DNA of 64,000 nt from Lysobacter sp. (GTDB taxonomy: Bacteria > Pseudomonadota > Gammaproteobacteria > Xanthomonadales > Xanthomonadaceae), in contig JABFRN010000001.1 in the NCBI GenBank assembly GCA_013141175.1, positions 3,554,001-3,618,000 on the forward strand, written 5' to 3'. Of this stretch, positions 50,290 through 64,000 are shown piece by piece. Below the pieces are notes generated by a model. It was not told where the DNA came from. It did not search any database and worked only from the letters and a program-made list of their open reading frames with translations. The translations under genes and the position numbers were made by a program. Numbering within the stretch: position 1 is the stretch's first letter; every line of letters begins with the position of its first letter.

Positions 50290-50490
50290 GGCCCGAGGTA
50301 TCCCCACACATCGAACATTTCAAAAGACGTCGTCATCCCCGTGAACGCGGGGATCCAGCGACTTCCCGCTTCTGTGCAGCGCAAAGACACTGGGTTCCCG
50401 CGTTCGCGGGAACGACCGGTGGAAGAACGGCGACTGCCGATCAATCGATCCGTTTTATTTTCATGCGGAAAAGCGGGGATGCCCCAGGCC
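50290..50490. repeat. Copy C of the ~200-bp intergenic repeat
   Basis: Left end GGCCCGAGGTATCCCCACA, right end AAGCGGGGATGCCCCAGGCC, imperfect inverted repeats, with both hairpins and the core GCCGATCAATCGATCCGTT. After it, 50491-50580 contains a tandem 'CGCACAGGCATTTCCGATGC'-like duplication. Confidence 0.75.
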
Positions 50491-53138: not shown

Positions 53139-53756
53139 GCAGGTGCGGCTCTGGACAGGTGCGGCTCTGAGCAGGCGTGAATGCGTTGGAACCCGCCGAC
53201 TTCAGCCCACCGCAATCAGGAAAGACGCGGGATCCACGCGTTCGCCGGGGTGACGCGATTGGACGTCGCGATTGCCGGATCCATCGCGGATACGCTTGTA
53301 TCTGAAAAACGGCTGTCCTAAGATCGCCTGCTGGCAAAGGAACAGGGAATGGGTGCGATGCCTAAGTTCGATGCTCAACATCATGCCGTCGGGCGGGTTG
53401 CTCGAAAGCGCATGCACTGCGCGCTGGGCAGCGCGAAACACATCAATCGCAACGCACATCGACTGAAGCCCGTCGGCGACGGACGGTCATAGTCATCGCT
53501 GGCCTGCGACAGGGCCGGTACGCGTCATTCTTCAGCGTCATGGATCAGCGATGGTCCGGCATGCACCTGCGCAACGTGGGGGCGGGGCTGTCGGGCGTAA
53601 CAGGGCGTTGGCCGCAGACGGGACAGGGATCCAGCGTTTTTTTCGAAAAGCAGGCCACTGCAGGTCCTGGATTCCGTTGATGGGGTGTCTGTCGAGAGTG
53701 TGCTGGGGCGACGCGTTCGCGCCCGTCATGACGATCTAAATATCCGGGGGGGTACG
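53139..53756. other. Intergenic region before the sigma54 activator
   Basis: 618 bp. Two tandem copies of AGGTGCGGCTCTG stand at the beginning (53142-53168). A 47-codon frame with a good ribosome site (53349-53492) is listed separately. A GGGGGG run serves the next gene. No known motif was recognised in the remainder. Confidence 0.4.
53349..53492 (+). CDS. Possible small basic protein
   Basis: 47 residues (starts MGAMPKFDAQHHAVGRVARK, ends LKPVGDGRS). AAGGA lies 7 nt before the ATG. The composition is His/Arg/Lys-rich, like a tiny nucleic-acid-binding protein, but it could be chance. No family is recognised. Confidence 0.25.
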   Translation: MGAMPKFDAQHHAVGRVARKRMHCALGSAKHINRNAHRLKPVGDGRS

Positions 53757-54743
53757 ATGGAAGCGTATTCACGATTCAACTTGATAGGCTCATCCGAGCA
53801 GTTCCAGAAAGTCCTCGCGCGCATCCAGAAGCTGGCGTCGCTCGACGCGACCGTGCTGCTGTCCGGGGAAACGGGGACAGGCAAAGAGCTCGCGGCGCGG
53901 GCGATCCACTACCGCAGCGCCCGGTCCGACAAGCCGTTCGTGCCGGTCAACTGCGGTGCGCTTGCCGAATCGCTGATCGAAAGCGAGTTGTTCGGCCACG
54001 AGCGCGGCGCATTCACCGATGCCAAGACCGCCTCCAATGGATTGATCGGCGAGGCCGCTGGCGGCACGCTGTTCCTGGACGAGGTCGACACGCTGAGCGC
54101 CAAGGCGCAGGCGGCGCTGCTGCGTTTCCTGCAGGATCGCACCTATCGACGGGTCGGCGGCGGCACGCTGCGGCAAGTGGACGTGCGCGTGCTGGTGGCC
54201 AGCAACGCGGACCTGCCCGAACTCGTGCAGAAGCGTCAATTCCGCCAGGATCTGCTCTATCGCCTGAATGTGCTGTCCCTGCACTTGCCCGCGCTGCGCG
54301 ACCGCGAGGGCGATGCTGCGGTGCTCGCGCGGGCGGCGCTGCAGCGGTTGAGCCATCAATACCGTTTGCCGTTGAAACAACTGCATGCCGATGGTCTCGC
54401 GTTCATCCAACGCTATCGCTGGCCGGGCAATGTCCGCGAGTTGGAAAACATCATCCATCGCGAATTCCTGATGAGCGACGATACCGAACTGCATCTGCGC
54501 GAATCCTGCGAAGCGCTGATGGGCCCGGCCGTACTGCTCGCCGACAGCGATACAAAGGCGCCTTTCCGCGATGCCAAGGCCAATGCCCTGGCCGAGTTCG
54601 AACGCAGCTATGTGCGCGCGATGCTGGCGCGCACCGGTGGCAACATTTCGCAGGCGGCGCGCTTGTCGAAGCAGGAGCGCAGTGCCTTCGGCAAGCTGGT
54701 GCGCAAGTACAAGCTCGGCGGTTTCGAAGGTCAGGTGGCCTGA
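53757..54743 (+). CDS. Sigma54-dependent transcriptional activator without N-terminal sensor domain
   Basis: 328 residues. AAA+ domain: Walker [19 protein letters not shown], the sigma54-contact loop written ERGAFTDAK (canonical GAFTGA), Walker [12 protein letters not shown]-finger region [20 protein letters not shown] and [19 protein letters not shown] Fis-type HTH ([20 protein letters not shown]) ends it. There is no receiver or GAF domain, as in PspF, so activity must be controlled by a partner or by level. It heads the T6SS side of the window, and a -24/-12 promoter precedes tssBC. Stand-alone activators of this kind (VasH type) commonly switch on T6SS. The target is inferred. Confidence 0.88.
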
Positions 54744-55284: not shown

Positions 55285-55775
55285 ATCCACGCACCGCATA
55301 TCGCCGTCACCGGCGATTTTTTTCGTCTCGATGCCTTCACTGCGATCGCCCCGCCATGGTGGGCGTCTCCGTGCGGCCGATGAGGTGAAAATCCACCCAC
55401 CGGGTAAAAAACGACTCGATCCGACCCGATCCGCAGCGGAGTCTCGAAAACACCCGTGATCTGTCGATTCTTCGGCGATCGTGCCTGCAAGCGCGGATGG
55501 TCGGCGGTGTGGCGCGCATCGGCATGAGGTCGAAAAGCACCTCGTGCGCGGCGTCCGGATGCGGGGTTCGTATCGCAAACAATTGTTTTTCATGGTGCTT
55601 GCGGCCGGATCTTCCGGTGGCGCGGAAATTGCTGTGCATCGTTGCAAGGCGTGCGATCGGCATTCGATGGGGCGCAGGCCGTGCCCGTCCGTGTGGCGGG
55701 GAACGTTTTACAGGGGCGTCGCGCCGAGGCCGGCGTAGGCGATGCGCTGCAGGGATCGAAGAAGAAGGGGTGGCG
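55285..55775. other. Intergenic region upstream of the unknown-gene cluster
   Basis: 491 bp. Starts with a terminator (55300-55324). The remainder has slightly lower GC near 55390-55470 and 55580. No -24/-12 match good enough to report, and no gene. Confidence 0.35.
55300..55324 (+). terminator. Rho-independent terminator
   Basis: ATCGCCG-TCAC-CGGCGAT followed by seven T. Confidence 0.8.
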
Positions 55776-56297
55776 ATGAACTGGTTCGGCAGCGGTGGCG
55801 GCAAACCGAAACCCGGCGGTGGCCAGTGGGTGGAGATGCAGGAGTACGTGCACAAGCGACCCGGCGTGGACGGCCAGCGCGGCGAGATCGAAAACCCGCA
55901 GGGCAGCGCGACCTACGATCGCAATCCCACCGACCTCACCGTGCACGGCATCGTGTCCGAGAAGCCGGGCGGTGGGACGTTCCTGATGCAGCAGATCGCC
56001 CTGGACGCGCAGCAGATGGGCAAACCGTTCGTGCGGACCACGATGACAGCGCCCAGCGCGTTCGGTTTCTACCATCGCATGGGCATGCTGCCTTCGCAGC
56101 AGAGCAAGGCGATGGGCGAGCTGTCGATGGCGCGGACCCATCCGGAAGGCGTGAGCTTCCCGATCGGACAGGTGGGCAGCAAGCCCGGGCGTCTGAACCA
56201 GGAGTCGCTGGACGCGATGGACCTGCGCATCAAGACCTCGCGGATGCAGTGGGAAGCGCCGACCGAGACGGTGGTGCGCAAGTCGTCCGGACGTTGA
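55776..56297 (+). CDS. Unknown protein, possibly GNAT-like, near the T6SS genes
   Basis: 173 residues. Gly/Lys/Pro-rich start (NWFGSGGGKPKPGGG). The middle HGIVSEKPGGGTFLMQQIAL followed by SAFGFYHRMGMLP resembles the acetyl-CoA-binding and FYxxxGF parts of GNAT acetyltransferases, but the usual Q/RxxGxG/A loop is altered to EKPGGG. The tail has IKTSRMQWE. Its ATG has a GAAGGGG ribosome site. First of three unknown genes on the same strand ahead of a GNAT gene and tssBC. T6SS cargo or accessory role is only inferred from place. Confidence 0.5.
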   Translation: MNWFGSGGGKPKPGGGQWVEMQEYVHKRPGVDGQRGEIENPQGSATYDRNPTDLTVHGIVSEKPGGGTFLMQQIALDAQQMGKPFVRTTMTAPSAFGFYHRMGMLPSQQSKAMGELSMARTHPEGVSFPIGQVGSKPGRLNQESLDAMDLRIKTSRMQWEAPTETVVRKSSGR

Positions 56298-56436
56298 GCG
56301 GATGCGCGATGCCCCGGCCCGCACTTTCTTGATCGTACCTGCTTTGATCGTACTTTCTTCGACCGCGCCGTCTTGAATCCACGGTCGACGCGGATTGCCG
56401 ATATCGGAACTGTTCCGCTCACCCTGCGAGACAACG

Positions 56437-57210
56437 ATGGATGAACCCAAGCGACAGGTGAAACACCAGAATCCCTATCCCGAGGGAACCGAAAAGCACG
56501 CGCTGTTCGAGGAAGCCTGGTCGAAGAAAACCGCGTTCGGCAATTTCACCGGGATGTGGGATTCGGGCCGCAAGAAACGCGAGGCGCGCGTGCAGCAGCG
56601 CGTGGAAAGTTTCACCGCGAACCGGGATGCCTTCGTCAGCGACAATGGCCTGCCTTTGCAGCCTTCGTATCATCCGGAGCGGGATCAGCCCGATCATCCG
56701 TACACCGGTTTTCACGGCAAGGGAGAGTCGGTCAAGTACCTCGATCACAGCAAGGACGACCGGCAGGGCTTCGCCGTCAGCTTCGATCAAGGACGTCTGC
56801 AGCAGAAAGGCATCAAGAATGCGCAGGGCGAGGTGGTTCCGCCCGATCGCGTGGGCGACAAGGTGATGTTCACCCGACGGGCGTCCAACGCGGGTCAACT
56901 GCTCGCCATGATCAAGAGCACCAGGCCCGAGCGGGTGCAGCACAGCACGTTCAACGAAGGCATGGCGGTGGCCAATGCGGGCTTCATCAACCTGGATCAA
57001 ACCGGTCAGGTGGACAGCTTCAAGTTGAGTTCGGGTCACTACGCGCCCGATGTCGAGAGCGGCGTGAAGCTTGCGATGTGGAGCGAGCAGCATGGCGTCT
57101 TTCAACAGGGCCAGGCGCGCATCCAGGACCACAGTGGCAAGCCGATGGACACATCGATCCAGGCGCGCATGTTCGCGGTGCAGTCGTGGGCGTCACGGCA
57201 GAACCACTGA
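56437..57210 (+). CDS. Unknown protein with SGHYxP motif, near the T6SS genes
   Basis: 257 residues, charged, no signal peptide or membrane segment. The C-terminal QVDSFKLSSGHYAPDVESGV resembles the 'G.I..is.SGHYxP' element seen in a number of large bacterial toxins and unknown proteins, usually as a small domain before an effector tail. The middle has LDHSKDDRQGFAVSFDQGRL and MFTRRASNAGQLLAMIKSTR. No catalytic motif is recognised. A T6SS-linked role is possible from neighbourhood. Confidence 0.5.
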   Translation: MDEPKRQVKHQNPYPEGTEKHALFEEAWSKKTAFGNFTGMWDSGRKKREARVQQRVESFTANRDAFVSDNGLPLQPSYHPERDQPDHPYTGFHGKGESVKYLDHSKDDRQGFAVSFDQGRLQQKGIKNAQGEVVPPDRVGDKVMFTRRASNAGQLLAMIKSTRPERVQHSTFNEGMAVANAGFINLDQTGQVDSFKLSSGHYAPDVESGVKLAMWSEQHGVFQQGQARIQDHSGKPMDTSIQARMFAVQSWASRQNH

Positions 57211-57304
57211 CGACCCGGCGCTCGGCGCCCCGACACCCTCCAGGCGCGCGGACCAGGTTCCGTGGCGCGGTCTTCACGGGAATCACGACAACAGGAAAAA
57301 GATC

Positions 57305-57916
57305 ATGGAGGGTGGAAATGGAGGGAGAGGCAGGGGTTATGCCAGCGGTGAGCACAGGGGCGCGATGGAGTTCCTGAGTGCCGAGAACAGAGGGCGAAGC
57401 AGACGCAATTCGCTGCAGCAGGCGGACCTGATCCATCAAGCCGGATTGGAACAGGATCCGTTGATGCCACCCAGGGCGTTCGGCCGGGACAGCTTCGAGG
57501 CGCTCACGGACCCGCGTGGAAGCATCGATGCGCGCGCGCTGCTGAGCCAGATGCATCCGACCCAGGAGCAGCGATGGAATCCTGATCTGGGAGGCGGGCG
57601 GCGTCAGATCCGGACAGGCCGGAATTTCAGGGTTCCGGACCGGGACGATCCCAATCGCCATTTCAATGTGCGCATCCATACCAACGACAACCACCGGGAG
57701 AATCCCGAAGAGAACGCGTTCGGCCACGCCATCGTCCGGGTCGAGCACGTCGAGCGGGTGATGAACGCCGCAGGCGTTGAAGTGCATCACGTCAGGGGTG
57801 CGCTGATGGGGCTGCCGCCCGTGGGACATGTCGGCGGCCCGTGGGTCGCGCACCCGAACGATGACCAGGCCAATGCCGCGCATATCCCGGCGAGATTCGG
57901 CCGTCGTCTTCCCTGA
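57305..57916 (+). CDS. Unknown protein, near the T6SS genes
   Basis: 203 residues. Begins with a Gly/Arg-rich low-complexity stretch (EGGNGGRGRGYASGEHRG), then a polar domain rich in His, Asn and Arg (NRHFNVRIHTNDNHRENPEE, FGHAIVRVEHVERVMNAAGV, HIPARFGRRLP). AGGAAA precedes the ATG. The composition would suit a secreted enzyme or toxin tail, but no family is recognised. It is 57 bp before the next gene on the same strand. Confidence 0.5.
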   Translation: MEGGNGGRGRGYASGEHRGAMEFLSAENRGRSRRNSLQQADLIHQAGLEQDPLMPPRAFGRDSFEALTDPRGSIDARALLSQMHPTQEQRWNPDLGGGRRQIRTGRNFRVPDRDDPNRHFNVRIHTNDNHRENPEENAFGHAIVRVEHVERVMNAAGVEVHHVRGALMGLPPVGHVGGPWVAHPNDDQANAAHIPARFGRRLP

Positions 57917-59140: not shown

Positions 59141-59354
59141 CTGAGGTATCCACACTCTTTCGAGCATTTCAAAAAAACGTCGTCATCCCCGCGAATGCGG
59201 GGATCCAGCGACTTCAAGCTTCCGATGCTTCCGGCTTCTGCGCAGCGCAAAGGCACCGGGTTCCCGCGTTCGCGGGAACGACGGGCAAAGGAACGGTGAC
59301 TGCCGATCAATCGATCCGTTTGATGTTCTTGAGGAAAGAGTTGGAATACCTCAG
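59141..59354. repeat. Copy D of the ~200-bp intergenic repeat, upstream of tssBC
   Basis: Best-preserved ends: CTGAGGTATCCACACTCT on the left and AGAGTTGGAATACCTCAG on the right, 15 of 18 complementary. Both hairpins and the core GCCGATCAATCGATCCGTT are present, with an extra ~15 bp CTTCCGATGCTTCCG-type insert. Confidence 0.8.
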
Positions 59355-60032
59355 ATCCGGTTCCGGGTCCGATGCGTCTCCCGTGCGCGGCACGCGTTTC
59401 CGCCCCGACGGCTGCGCCGAGACTGCCGCGAACGGTTGCGGTGTCGGTGTGCAGGCGATATCGGCGCTTAGCTTCTGCCGGTGGAAGCGCTGCGACCTGC
59501 TCATCGTCGGAACCGTCGGAGACCTGCTCCACGACGGTGCCCGGTACGGGCGTGACCGGCGCCGCGTCGGTCATGACATCGCAACGCGATGGTTTTTTTC
59601 TTCAAGCATCGCGCGGTGGGTGGAATTGCACCCGTATGCGGTTTTTTTCGCTCATCGCGCATCGCGATCGTTCCAGTCGTCGCAAAGCTGGCGTATCGCC
59701 TTGATCCGACAGGCTTTGCGGCGCTTCGCCGGGTGTGGATGCCGACTGCGGTTCGCATGCGCACCGAGTCGACAAGTACTCGGTACGTTGCGGGTCGGGT
59801 TGCGGAAATACCTGGAAACGCAGTGATATCAACGACTTCATCGATTCCGGGAAGTTGGCACGCAACTTGTTATCGATATCCTCGAAACAGCTTCGGCGGC
59901 CGTCGAAATCGCAGGCGCAATCGCGAACGATCGAGCCGATGTTGTTGAAGGTTGCATGCAGTCCGGCAGCCGCCACGGGTCCGCAAGTCGGACGCATCGA
60001 ACATCAACACAACCCAGGGTTGGGGCAAGCGA
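59355..60032. other. Regulatory gap upstream of tssBC
   Basis: 678 bp. Holds the -24/-12 promoter at 59855-59871. A minus-strand frame starting near 59574 (MTDAAPVTPVPGTVVEQVSD) has some coding character but runs into repeat copy D without an ending of its own; it is not called. AT content rises near 59590-59650. Confidence 0.45.
59855..59871 (+). promoter_or_regulatory. Sigma54 (-24/-12) promoter for the T6SS operon
   Basis: TTGGCACGCAACTTGTT against the consensus TTGGCACGNNNNTTGCW: a full match in the -24 block and correct spacing, with T for C at the -12 GC. It lies about 160 bp before tssBC, on the right strand. A sigma54 activator gene is 5 kb upstream in the same cluster. Confidence 0.65.
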
Positions 60033-62411
60033 ATGAGCGAAAGCATTCAGAAGAAGCTGTTGCGAGTGCGTCCACCACGTGTACGCATCACCTACGACGT
60101 GCATACCAATGGAGCCATCGAGAAGCGGGAACTGCCGTTCGTGGTCGGGATCTTCGCCGACCTGTCGGGCGACCGCGATCCGAATCCGGCAGATCCCAAG
60201 GCGGCGCTGCCGGAGTACAAGGATCGCAAGATCGTCGACATCGACCGCGATAACTTCAACGAAGTGCTCAAGCAGAGCGTCCCGCGCGTCAACCTGAAGA
60301 CCGTGAACAACGTGCTGCCGGGCGGCGACGGCAGTCCGCTGAAAGGCGCGCTGGTGTTCGAATCGATGACCGACTTCGAGCCGATCAATATCGTCCACAA
60401 GGTGCCGGTGCTCGACAGGGTCTTCCAGCAGCGCAAGCTGCTGCGCGATGCCCAGGCCCGCGCCGAGGTCAAGGACACGGCCGCCAAGGCGCTCGACGAT
60501 GCCGTGGTCGCCATGGAAAGCACCGGCGCGCATTGGGCGTCCACGGCCAGGTCCGCACTGACGGTGCTGGCGGATGCGCTCAAGGCGGTCAACGACGCGA
60601 AACCGGCCGCCGCGACCACCGCGCAGATCCATGCGGCCAGCGACGCCTTGAAGAACAAAGCCGTGCCTGCGTTGAGACATGCGGCCGACCATCTCAAGGT
60701 GGAAGACGAGCGTCAGGACAGGATCGCAACGGCCGGTGGTGCGACCACCGGCAGCGATGCGGCGCGGACTGCGCTGAAAGCGGCGGTCGCGCCGTTCGAA
60801 GCCGCTGCCGTGGCCGCCGAAAATGCGGTCAAGGAACTGGTTGCATTGGCCGACCCGAACACCGCCAAGGTGTCCGATGCCACCGCAACGGCGCTTGAAA
60901 CCAACAGTACGACGACGCTGCCGCCGCTGGTCGCCGCGATCGAAACAGCGACGCCGTACAGCGCGGTCGACAGCCAGATCACGGCGACACTGACGACGGC
61001 GTTTCCAGCGCCTGCGGATTTCGCGGCCGGCGTGTCCGCCGCACTGCGGGATCATGTGTTTCCGGTCGTGAGTGCCGGCGGCGGCAGCGGCGTCGGTCGC
61101 GGCTCGGCGCTGTCGATCGATTTCGCGGTGGCCGCCATCGATGCTGCGCTCAGCAAGCAGCTCTCGGCGATCATGCACAGCGCGAAGTTCAAGGAAATGG
61201 AAGCGACCTGGCGCGGGCTGTTCCATCTCGTGTCGCGCACGGAAACCGGCACGCGACTGAAGTTGCGCATCTTCAATGCCACGCTCAAGGAACTGCAGGA
61301 CGACATGTCCAAGGCGGTCGAGTTCGACCAGAGCAAGCTGTTCAAGCTGATCTACGAAGCCGAATACGGCACGTTCGGCGGCTTCCCCTACAGCATGCTG
61401 CTGGGCGGCTACGAAATCGGCCCGGGCGCGCCGGACATGACCTTCATCAACGCGATGTCCAGCGTGGCGTCGGCGGCGCACGCGCCGTTCCTGGCGGCCA
61501 CGGCGCCGGCGATGTTCGGCCTGCCTGATTTCGGCGATCTTGCCAAGCCGCGCGATCTGGCCAAGATCTTCGAAGGCGCCGATCTGACCGCGTGGTCGGA
61601 GTTCCGGGGCACCGAGGATTCGCGCTATGTGTCGCTGGTGTTGCCGCACGTCATGCTGCGCCTGCCGTACGGCGAGAACACGCTGCCGGCCGATGGCTTC
61701 CGCTTCGAGGAAGCGGTGCTCACCGAAGACGGGGTGCCCGACAACCGGAACTTCCTGTGGGGCAATGCCGCGTATTTCCTGGCCGAGCGCATCACCAATG
61801 CGTTTTCGCTGTACAGCTGGACGGCGGCGATCCGCGGCGTCGAAGGCGGCGGCCTGGTCGAAGGCCTGCCGATCTACACCTTCAGCAGCGGCGGCGACGA
61901 CGGCATCAAGGAAATCCTCTGCCCGACCGAAGTGGCCATCACCGACCGGCGCGAGAAGGAGATCAACGATCTGGGCTTCATCGCGCTGTGCCACAGCAAG
62001 GGCAGCGGCAAGGCGGCATTCTTCGGCGGCCAGACCACCAACCGGCCGAAGAAGTACATCAATGCCGATGCCAACGCGAACGCCGCGCTGTCTTCGCGCC
62101 TGCCGTACATCATGGCGGCTTCGCGATTCGCCCACTACATCAAGGTGATCGTGCGCGACAAGGTGGGCGGATTCCTGACCCGGGGCAACGTCGAAACGTT
62201 CCTCAACACCTGGATTTCGCAGTATGTGCTGCTCGACGACAACGCATCGCAGGACGTGAAGTCCGCGTTCCCGCTGCGCGAAGCGTCGATCGTCGTGGTG
62301 GATGTGCCGGGCGAGCCCGGAGCGTACAAGGCGACCGTGTTCCTCAAGCCGCATTTCCAGCTCGAGGAGCTGACCACGTCGATCCGGCTCGTGGCCGATC
62401 TGCCGAAGTAG
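60033..62411 (+). CDS. tssBC: Fused T6SS contractile-sheath protein TssB-TssC
   Basis: 792 residues. Residues 1-165 are a complete TssB/VipA (RVRPPRVRITYDVHTNGAIE, ELPFVVGIFADLSG, FNEVLKQSVPRVNL, ALVFESMTDFEP, LLRDAQARAEV). Residues about 166-360 are an Ala-rich helical linker with no known domain. Residues 361-792 are TssC/VipB (ATWRGLFHLVSRTETGTRLK, YGTFGGFPYSMLLGGYEIGP, SVASAAHAPFLAATAPAMFG, EDSRYVSLVLPHVMLRLPYG). Normally these are two genes; here there is one uninterrupted frame with no stop or start between. Together they form the sheath that contracts to fire the Hcp tube. The start at MSESIQKK fits the TssB family; the frame opens upstream of it. Confidence 0.9.
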   Translation: MSESIQKKLLRVRPPRVRITYDVHTNGAIEKRELPFVVGIFADLSGDRDPNPADPKAALPEYKDRKIVDIDRDNFNEVLKQSVPRVNLKTVNNVLPGGDGSPLKGALVFESMTDFEPINIVHKVPVLDRVFQQRKLLRDAQARAEVKDTAAKALDDAVVAMESTGAHWASTARSALTVLADALKAVNDAKPAAATTAQIHAASDALKNKAVPALRHAADHLKVEDERQDRIATAGGATTGSDAARTALKAAVAPFEAAAVAAENAVKELVALADPNTAKVSDATATALETNSTTTLPPLVAAIETATPYSAVDSQITATLTTAFPAPADFAAGVSAALRDHVFPVVSAGGGSGVGRGSALSIDFAVAAIDAALSKQLSAIMHSAKFKEMEATWRGLFHLVSRTETGTRLKLRIFNATLKELQDDMSKAVEFDQSKLFKLIYEAEYGTFGGFPYSMLLGGYEIGPGAPDMTFINAMSSVASAAHAPFLAATAPAMFGLPDFGDLAKPRDLAKIFEGADLTAWSEFRGTEDSRYVSLVLPHVMLRLPYGENTLPADGFRFEEAVLTEDGVPDNRNFLWGNAAYFLAERITNAFSLYSWTAAIRGVEGGGLVEGLPIYTFSSGGDDGIKEILCPTEVAITDRREKEINDLGFIALCHSKGSGKAAFFGGQTTNRPKKYINADANANAALSSRLPYIMAASRFAHYIKVIVRDKVGGFLTRGNVETFLNTWISQYVLLDDNASQDVKSAFPLREASIVVVDVPGEPGAYKATVFLKPHFQLEELTTSIRLVADLPK

Positions 62412-62472: not shown

Positions 62473-63024
62473 ATGGACCTGATCATTTTGCGGCCCGGGA
62501 AATCGGACATCATCGGCGAGGACAGTTCGACCTATATCGACAACGACAAATGGCGCGATCCGATCTTCAAGTTCGACAAGTGCCTTGAACTGGTGTCGAT
62601 CCACCAGGGCATGAAGCAGCAGATCACCACCGACGTCAGCAACAAGGCCCGCACGTCGGGCCGGCCGGTGATCACCGAGTTCACCTGCGTGAAGTACGTC
62701 GATCAGACATCGGTCAAGCTCTACGACTATTGCCTGCGCGCCGAGACGCTGGGGTCGGGCAAGGACGAGCCGACGATGCTGTACATCGCCCGCAACTCCG
62801 GCGACCGGACCGGCAACATCATGACCTTCGCGCTGCGCGACGCGATCATCAGCGAGATCCAGTTCCAGTCGCACCCCAACGACATGCCGACCGAGCAGTT
62901 CAAGCTCAATTTCACCGAAATCCTGTGGACGTACACGATCCAGGACGTCGACATGTCGACCAAGGGCAGCATCCACAAGGGCTGGAGCGTGATGCACAAC
63001 AAACCGATCGGCAGCTTCACCTGA
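62473..63024 (+). CDS. hcp: T6SS tube protein Hcp (TssD)
   Basis: 183 residues. FTCVKYVDQTSVKLYDYCLR, GNIMTFALRDAIISEIQFQS and LNFTEILWTYTIQ are Hcp-family features. Hexameric rings stack into the inner tube expelled by the sheath. GAGGAA precedes the ATG. It lies 61 bp after tssBC. Confidence 0.9.
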   Translation: MDLIILRPGKSDIIGEDSSTYIDNDKWRDPIFKFDKCLELVSIHQGMKQQITTDVSNKARTSGRPVITEFTCVKYVDQTSVKLYDYCLRAETLGSGKDEPTMLYIARNSGDRTGNIMTFALRDAIISEIQFQSHPNDMPTEQFKLNFTEILWTYTIQDVDMSTKGSIHKGWSVMHNKPIGSFT

Positions 63025-63100: not shown

Positions 63101-63478
63101 ATGCAGTTCCTGTTCGAGCGTCTGAGTGTTCTTCCCCGCAACCTGGATGGCCGATCCGAGCCATTCGACCAGGTCGCTGCGGTCATCGCGCAGATCCAGC
63201 GCATCGCATCTACCGCGCGCAGCGTCGGCGATTCGGTCGCAGTCGTGCCGTGGGGAATGCGCTCGGTTCCCACCATGGGTGCGAGCGCGACGCTGCAGAT
63301 CGAGGCGTTCGCGAAGACGCTCGGCGATGCCATCGCGCGCTACGAGCCGCGTTTGAAATCGGTGCAGGTCAGCGTCGAGCGTCACGACGATCCGCTCAGC
63401 CCCTACGGTCTGCTGGTCAGCGCGATCTTTCCCGATGAAGACCAGCCGCGCAATGTGCGCGTCGCTGCGCCGTTCTGA
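63101..63478 (+). CDS. tssE: T6SS baseplate protein TssE (gp25-like)
   Basis: 125 residues, usual length. Small gp25/lysozyme-like fold with GASATLQIEAFAKTLGDAIA and RLKSVQVSVERHDDPLSPYG. It forms baseplate wedges with TssF and TssG and touches the sheath. Placed between hcp and tssF as in many T6SS loci. Confidence 0.82.
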   Translation: MQFLFERLSVLPRNLDGRSEPFDQVAAVIAQIQRIASTARSVGDSVAVVPWGMRSVPTMGASATLQIEAFAKTLGDAIARYEPRLKSVQVSVERHDDPLSPYGLLVSAIFPDEDQPRNVRVAAPF

Positions 63479-63498: not shown

Positions 63499-64000
63499 AT
63501 GCATTCCCCGGCGGATCGCCTCAAGGACTTCTATCAGCAGGAGCTGACGGCCCTGTGCGAGGAGGCCAGCGAATTCGCCAACGATTATCCCGAGCAGGCG
63601 AACATGCTCGGACTGCAGCGTGGCCGCTCGTCCGATCCGCAGGTCGATCTGATGATGCAGTCGTTCGCTTATCTGACCGGCCGCCTGCGCCATCAGCTGG
63701 AGATCGACCAGGCCGACCTGCCCAATGCGCTGTTGGGCGATCTGTATCCGCATCTGGAAGCGCCGCTGCCGTCGATGGTGATCGCCGAGATCGGCGTGCA
63801 ACCCGATGGCGTCGCGGTGATCGAGCGCGGGCGCAGCGTGACGGCGACCGTGCCGATCAAGGGCGGCGGCAGCGCCATCTGCCGGTTTCGCACCTGCTGC
63901 CAGACCGTGCTGTATCCGTTGACGGTCACCGAACTGGGCATCGTGTCTCCCGGCGACTATCCGCTGCTCGCCCCCGATCCCGATGTGCGCGGCATCCTGC
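63499..64000 (+). CDS. tssF: T6SS baseplate protein TssF (3' end outside window)
   Basis: The first 167 residues are visible and the frame is open to the window end. RLKDFYQQELTALCEEASEF, DYPEQANMLGL, SDPQVDLMMQSFAYLTGRLR and LLGDLYPHLEAPLPSMVIAE match the TssF N-terminus (VasA/ImpG). It is a main baseplate wedge protein. AGGAG 7 nt before the ATG; 20 bp after tssE. The remaining T6SS genes should follow to the right. Confidence 0.9.
   Translation, partial: MHSPADRLKDFYQQELTALCEEASEFANDYPEQANMLGLQRGRSSDPQVDLMMQSFAYLTGRLRHQLEIDQADLPNALLGDLYPHLEAPLPSMVIAEIGVQPDGVAVIERGRSVTATVPIKGGGSAICRFRTCCQTVLYPLTVTELGIVSPGDYPLLAPDPDVRGIL

Follow-up and report, generated by a model that had tools for sequence, protein, structure and literature searches.

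TssB and TssC, the two sheath proteins of the type VI secretion system (T6SS), are encoded as a single polypeptide in Lysobacter sp., in a 64,000-nucleotide stretch of contig JABFRN010000001.1 (hereafter the window, to which the positions below refer). The fused proteins found so far form one clade, and this lineage is without both the ClpV motif of TssC and a clpV gene in the cluster. The sequence evidence suggests, with a probability that we put at roughly 70%, a working T6SS with a contractile sheath of one-chain TssB-TssC protomers that would not be recycled by ClpV.

The tssBC fusion gene (60033..62411, + strand) is a single stop-free frame of 792 amino acids running from ATG to TAG, and its coordinates, strand and length had been given correctly in a preliminary description of this DNA. 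The TssB part comprises residues 1-159 (60033..60509, +) and matches TIGR03358 at model positions 1-145 of 160 (residues 6-159, 120.6 bits, cut-off 97.25), while the TssC part comprises residues 358-791 (61104..62405, +) and matches TIGR03355 at model positions 46-473 of 473 (582.6 bits, cut-off 271.5). Pfam agrees with NCBIfam, with PF05591 in the TssB part and PF05943 and PF18945 in the TssC part. The linker between the two matches (residues 160-357; 60510..61103, +) is Ala-rich and predicted to be helical. Its 198 residues have no NCBIfam or Pfam match, and Ala accounts for 28% of residues 151-352, in line with the Ala-rich linker of about 195 residues without a recognised domain described before. 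Both families are thus present as had been claimed, but they are not complete, as TssB is without its last 15 model positions at the junction and TssC without its first 45. Judged from the profile alignments, these missing pieces are precisely the two ends that meet at the junction. As the TssC match begins at model position 46, the TssC N-terminus, which is the ClpV-binding site in other systems, is absent from the fusion, and on the same alignments the linker takes the place of the TssB tail and of this ClpV-binding end.

The window genome consists of one contig of 4,155,120 bases (4.16 Mb). In a profile search of the whole contig, TssB and TssC were each matched once, in either case inside the fused frame, and the second, separate copy of either gene for which a check had been proposed was not found there. 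Each of the 17 solved TssB or TssC sequences that we found matches one half of the window protein only. Structure prediction, also proposed at the outset, was carried out for the window protein and for a short fused form and gave no usable fold (mean pLDDT 51.7 and 48.9, respectively). Fair confidence in these models is confined to the helical region around the junction, and the linker helices have moderate pLDDT within the otherwise poor model of the window protein.

The fused gene is followed by hcp/tssD for the tube protein (62473..63024, +; PF05638, 66.6 bits, under the TIGR03344 cut-off), tssE for a baseplate protein (63101..63478, +; PF04965, 28.7 bits against a cut-off of 27.2, under the TIGR03357 cut-off) and the start of tssF (63499..64000, +; Pfam match over cut-off), which is cut by the window end. 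The genes from tssF to tssA lie at G000:C1:3617499-3635727 of the genome with no Clp gene within. The order of the whole cluster is tssBC, hcp, tssE, tssF, tssG, vgrG, a DUF2169/pentapeptide gene, a second pentapeptide frame, a DUF3540 gene, a PAAR-like gene, tssK, tssL, tssM and tssA. Pfam matches over cut-off were obtained for Hcp, TssE, TssF, TssG, the VgrG hub domain, TssK, DotU/TssL, the IcmF-related N-terminus (TssM), ImpA_N (TssA) and the PAAR-like domain; Hcp, TssE and TssM are under their NCBIfam cut-offs. A search for TssJ pointed to a small frame between the PAAR-like gene and tssK, which has a lipobox-like start and no Pfam or NCBIfam match. Since tssG and vgrG overlap, there is no room for clpV between them. 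Among the features that define T6SS type i, the locus has the TssB and TssC families and, adjoining them, Hcp, TssE, F, G, K, L, M, A, VgrG and PAAR, and it has neither the ClpV/TssH ATPase nor TssB and TssC as separate chains.

Several other elements were observed around the cluster. Two genes past tssA (L004 7944-9716), one with DUF5636 and one without a family match, are possible effectors. A sigma-54 activator gene is located at 53685-54743, and the frames between it and the T6SS operon (55742-57916), two of which were scanned without a Pfam match, are possible cargo or accessory genes. A sigma-54-like site with one mismatch was seen at 59856-59870, about 160 bases upstream of tssBC; it was rejected as meaningful, being no better than chance, as 25 of 100 shuffles had an equal match number. 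A repeat element is present in two copies about 8.85 kb apart (50322-50471 and 59172-59337; 51 nt at 90% plus 110 nt at 87% identity), the second of them shortly upstream of tssBC.

A search for the same fusion elsewhere had also been suggested. The natural fusion proved to be real but not a single case, as TssB and TssC share one stop-free frame in at least 21 genomes of several families, where the products span about 631 to 807 amino acids; the count is a lower bound because the long frames of the genome draws were fetched in part. Within the genus, 5 of 11 genomes matched and all five were fused. PF05943 was present in 88 of 398 genomes of the phylum draw, and four of the 12 longer-frame loci fetched from it were fused (the window, G070, G011 and G220). 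The class draw (40 of 369 genomes matching at 1e-120) added G742, and the order draw (56 of 250 matching) added G936, G814, G983, G965 and G971. In the family of Pseudothauera, 52 of 297 genomes matched at 1e-150 and six were fused, four of them new; the frame check found nine of 52 loci fused, which correspond to six distinct genomes, two already known. G070 was the only fused case among 78 genomes of its class. Named members are metagenome-assembled genomes of Lysobacterales, Lysobacteraceae, Lysobacter and Rhodocyclaceae, together with the isolate Pseudothauera nasutitermitis. Among the other long open frames checked (12 loci, L022-L032 plus Rhizobium L020, and the 52-locus set), many were discarded as fusions, since the two genes either occupy different frames or share a frame that a stop interrupts. 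A plasmid search gave 158 matching records, and among the 20 listed, the three with TssB covered carry separate genes by annotation. A second TssC-like gene follows TssC in tandem in L020, L022, L029, L032 and L143.

In a TssC tree of 83 rows (21 fused and 62 separate), the fused proteins form one clade with an ultrafast bootstrap of 100 and an SH-aLRT of 99, recovered in 200 of 200 bootstrap trees. Twelve rows were left out of this tree, being long-branched additional TssC paralogues or near-duplicates, and a quick 52-row tree gives the same single fused clade. By its phylogeny, then, the fusion in the 21 genomes is one evolutionary event, and its link with the loss of ClpV counts once, whatever the number of genomes. 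Because one clade amounts to one event, cause and order between the fusion and the loss of ClpV are unproven. In many separate systems (L099-L107, L109), TssB and TssC share a reading frame with one stop between them, so a fusion would need little change; despite this short step, the fused cases found make up one clade. In the fused locus of G070 (L083), an additional segment interrupts the TssB part, and the genes are ordered differently, with K, L/M and A ahead of tssBC.

With ClpB as the query, no Clp gene was found in the stretch fetched for any of 17 fused loci, L141 and L144 among them. The window genome has no TIGR03345 (ClpV) match over cut-off, and its best Clp match is ClpB by the curated model (1432 bits). 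TIGR03345 was over cut-off in 3 of the 21 fused genomes (1/14, 0/3, 2/4) versus 42 of 44 unfused ones (9/9, 1/1, 32/34), the latter being relatives chosen by hand, not at random. The three positive fused genomes (G220, G1075 and G1024) each have another T6SS of the ordinary kind (L143, L139 and L140, respectively), with ClpV immediately behind its tssG; the fused cluster L141, also in G1075, contains no ClpV. Among the 18 fused genomes without ClpV, G998 and G1243 gave not even a ClpB-like match, so that their assemblies look incomplete. In the separate clade nearest by identity, 7 of the 9 loci fetched run from TssB and TssC through Hcp, E, F and G to ClpV, and in the other two ClpV is elsewhere in the genome. 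The unfused genomes without ClpV over cut-off are G1206, in many contigs, and G985, in one contig. The G985 locus (L142) has separate TssB and TssC and a DUF2169 gene, which indicates that loss of ClpV does not need fusion.

TssC of V. cholerae binds ClpV through the motif LLDEII (PMC4239648), and we modelled on it a strict motif, LLDxI[IVLM]. This motif occurs in none of the 21 fused proteins, in 24 of the 62 separate tree rows and in all nine TssCs of the nearest separate clade. It is missing from 38 of the 62 separate rows as well, and modes of ClpV binding without an LLDEII-type motif are described (PMC4239648; PMC5048182), so the absence of LLDxI alone proves nothing. In the fused lineage, the TssC ClpV motif and the cluster clpV are jointly absent. 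The linkage had been expected to constrain ClpV access; the connection with ClpV is indeed affected, but beyond mere constraint, since the binding motif and the cluster gene are both gone.

How such a sheath might work can be considered on the P. aeruginosa structure, in which the N-terminal strand of TssB and the C-terminal strand of TssC knit neighbours, the C-terminal helix of TssB packs with the first TssC helices as an outer tri-helical bundle, and ClpV targets the TssC N-terminal helix in that bundle (PMC5807055). The R2 pyocin, which is not recycled, is without the outer tri-helical domain (PMC5807055). The fused chain would fold like the usual TssB-TssC pair, and the join would link two helices of the outer bundle, the C-terminal one of TssB and the first one of TssC. 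The TssB N-arm and the TssC C-arm are free and conserved in the fused proteins, and they would still knit neighbouring protomers, with contraction as usual. The strand exchange on which sheath assembly depends, as the preliminary description pointed out, is therefore probably not hindered. With no free TssC N-terminus and no ClpV, contracted sheaths would escape recycling by a dedicated ATPase. Most likely the fused sheath has no dedicated recycling and would be cleared slowly by the general disaggregase ClpB, or by proteases and dilution, in the manner of phage tails and pyocins, which likewise have single-chain sheaths and serve once. More tentatively, and at somewhat below even odds, the T6SS lineage would have reverted to a phage-like one-chain sheath fired once. 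On this view the fusion stripped TssC of its ClpV handle, the sheath, once clpV was gone, became disposable or took a different recycling route, and several lineages later added unrelated linker segments on the outer face.

Counted against a working one-chain sheath without ClpV recycling were the single evolutionary event, G985, the separate rows without the motif, the poor structure models, the two fused genomes that look incomplete and a secretion result. The T6SS-1 of Azoarcus olearius BH72, of phylogenetic group 4, is likewise without tssH, and it was reported in PMC6423157 to be expressed with no detectable secretion. The bacterial order of this strain also contains fused members.

The strongest alternative is that the fused sheath is still recycled by the general ClpB, which would engage the linker or some other exposed loop in the way that it acts on contracted sheaths in Francisella; this is a serious contender that falls a little short of an even chance. 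ClpB-range matches (801-853 bits under TIGR03345) are found in 19 of the 21 fused genomes, and ClpB recycles the sheaths of the Francisella T6SS (IglA/IglB), which likewise is without ClpV (PMC5481754). Unlike the fused protein, the Francisella sheath has its two components on distinct chains (IglA and IglB; 3j9o), and the role that ClpB has there is only putative for the fusion. ClpB is, however, a housekeeping protein that relatives lacking this T6SS have as well, and finding it is therefore uninformative about recycling. The linker sequence is also poorly conserved between fused lineages, and no shared ClpB recognition site is therefore evident.

It is unlikely that a protease cut or an internal start yields a separate TssC, and with it an ordinary two-chain sheath. 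Although a protease might plausibly cut within the linker, which is variable and in part Ala-rich, 4 of 16 fused proteins, all of them short (L015, L017, L018 and L019), have no Met from residue 150 to the TssC core, GTG and TTG starts being outside this check, and a two-chain product would still be without the LLDxI helix and ClpV.

It is very unlikely that the locus is a degenerating T6SS without function whose tssB and tssC ran together through loss of a stop codon. The scores of Hcp and TssE under the NCBIfam cut-offs and the absence of ClpV would agree with decay, but coding constraint spans the whole gene, linker included. The closest homologue of the window protein (G006, same locus as L014) is 92% identical, also 792 amino acids long and without a frameshift. 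Between the two genes, dN is 0.043 for TssB, 0.112 for the linker and 0.016 for TssC, and dS is 0.209, 0.503 and 0.288, giving dN/dS of about 0.21, 0.22 and 0.06, respectively. The linker value is close to that of TssB, so the linker evolves as coding sequence under similar constraint. Decay also fits poorly with a gene order that is long and conserved across 17 fused loci and with a well-supported clade spread over families. A sequencing or assembly artefact, or a lone accident, is refuted in practice by the 21 separate assemblies, as the window genome is one contig and a comparable stop-free frame is present in 20 further genomes, including that of the cultured isolate P. nasutitermitis (L019).

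The long linker of the window is common only to G006, and their nearest relatives total 643-649 amino acids. In the L070-L074 group the linker is about equally long and shows no detectable similarity to that of the window, in a comparison of very low power owing to the Ala-rich sequences, and G1243 has a different linker with a DAP repeat. Going by these lengths and sequences, the long linker is lineage-specific and not an essential part of the fusion. These linkers, together with the insert inside TssB of G070, make it probable that the sheath gained additional outer segments repeatedly. An outer sheath layer formed by the long linker, as first proposed, may exist in such lineages.

Compared with TssB/TssC (VipA/VipB) of a canonical T6SS, the fused system has the same two families, B before C, and the same neighbours (Hcp, E, F, G, VgrG, K, L, M and A); it differs in being a single chain with neither a free TssC N-terminus nor LLDxI, and in having no ClpV gene in the cluster. 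Extracellular injection systems have a single-chain sheath protomer that is not known to be recycled by ClpV. The sheaths of contractile phages and R-type pyocins (gp18 and kin) are also one polypeptide with both arms and are not ClpV-recycled (PMC5807055). Unlike all of these, the fused protein consists of TssB and TssC sequence beside T6SS baseplate and membrane-complex genes, and its best family matches are T6SS families only, not a one-chain sheath family. The fused sheath may work like those of phages, pyocins and extracellular injection systems, but its family matches place it outside their family.

No report of a fused TssB-TssC was found in open-access full text, consistent with the initial statement that no natural example had been characterised. 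In the portions available, papers matching explicit fusion phrases concern reporter or two-hybrid fusions only, and the words "fused" and "fusion" are absent from the available part of the Xanthomonadales T6SS review PMC6653060. The existence of a clade and the absence of ClpV strengthen the original sense of the finding, whose emphasis on the long linker is reduced.

Why the T6SS sheath has two chains and the phage or pyocin sheath one is an open question, and ClpV recycling is one proposed answer. A fused clade without the ClpV-binding end or clpV makes this question testable. The fusion provides a fixed 1:1 protomer, which would be useful in structural work, and it points to a sheath whose outer face has probably taken up extra segments repeatedly within the clade.
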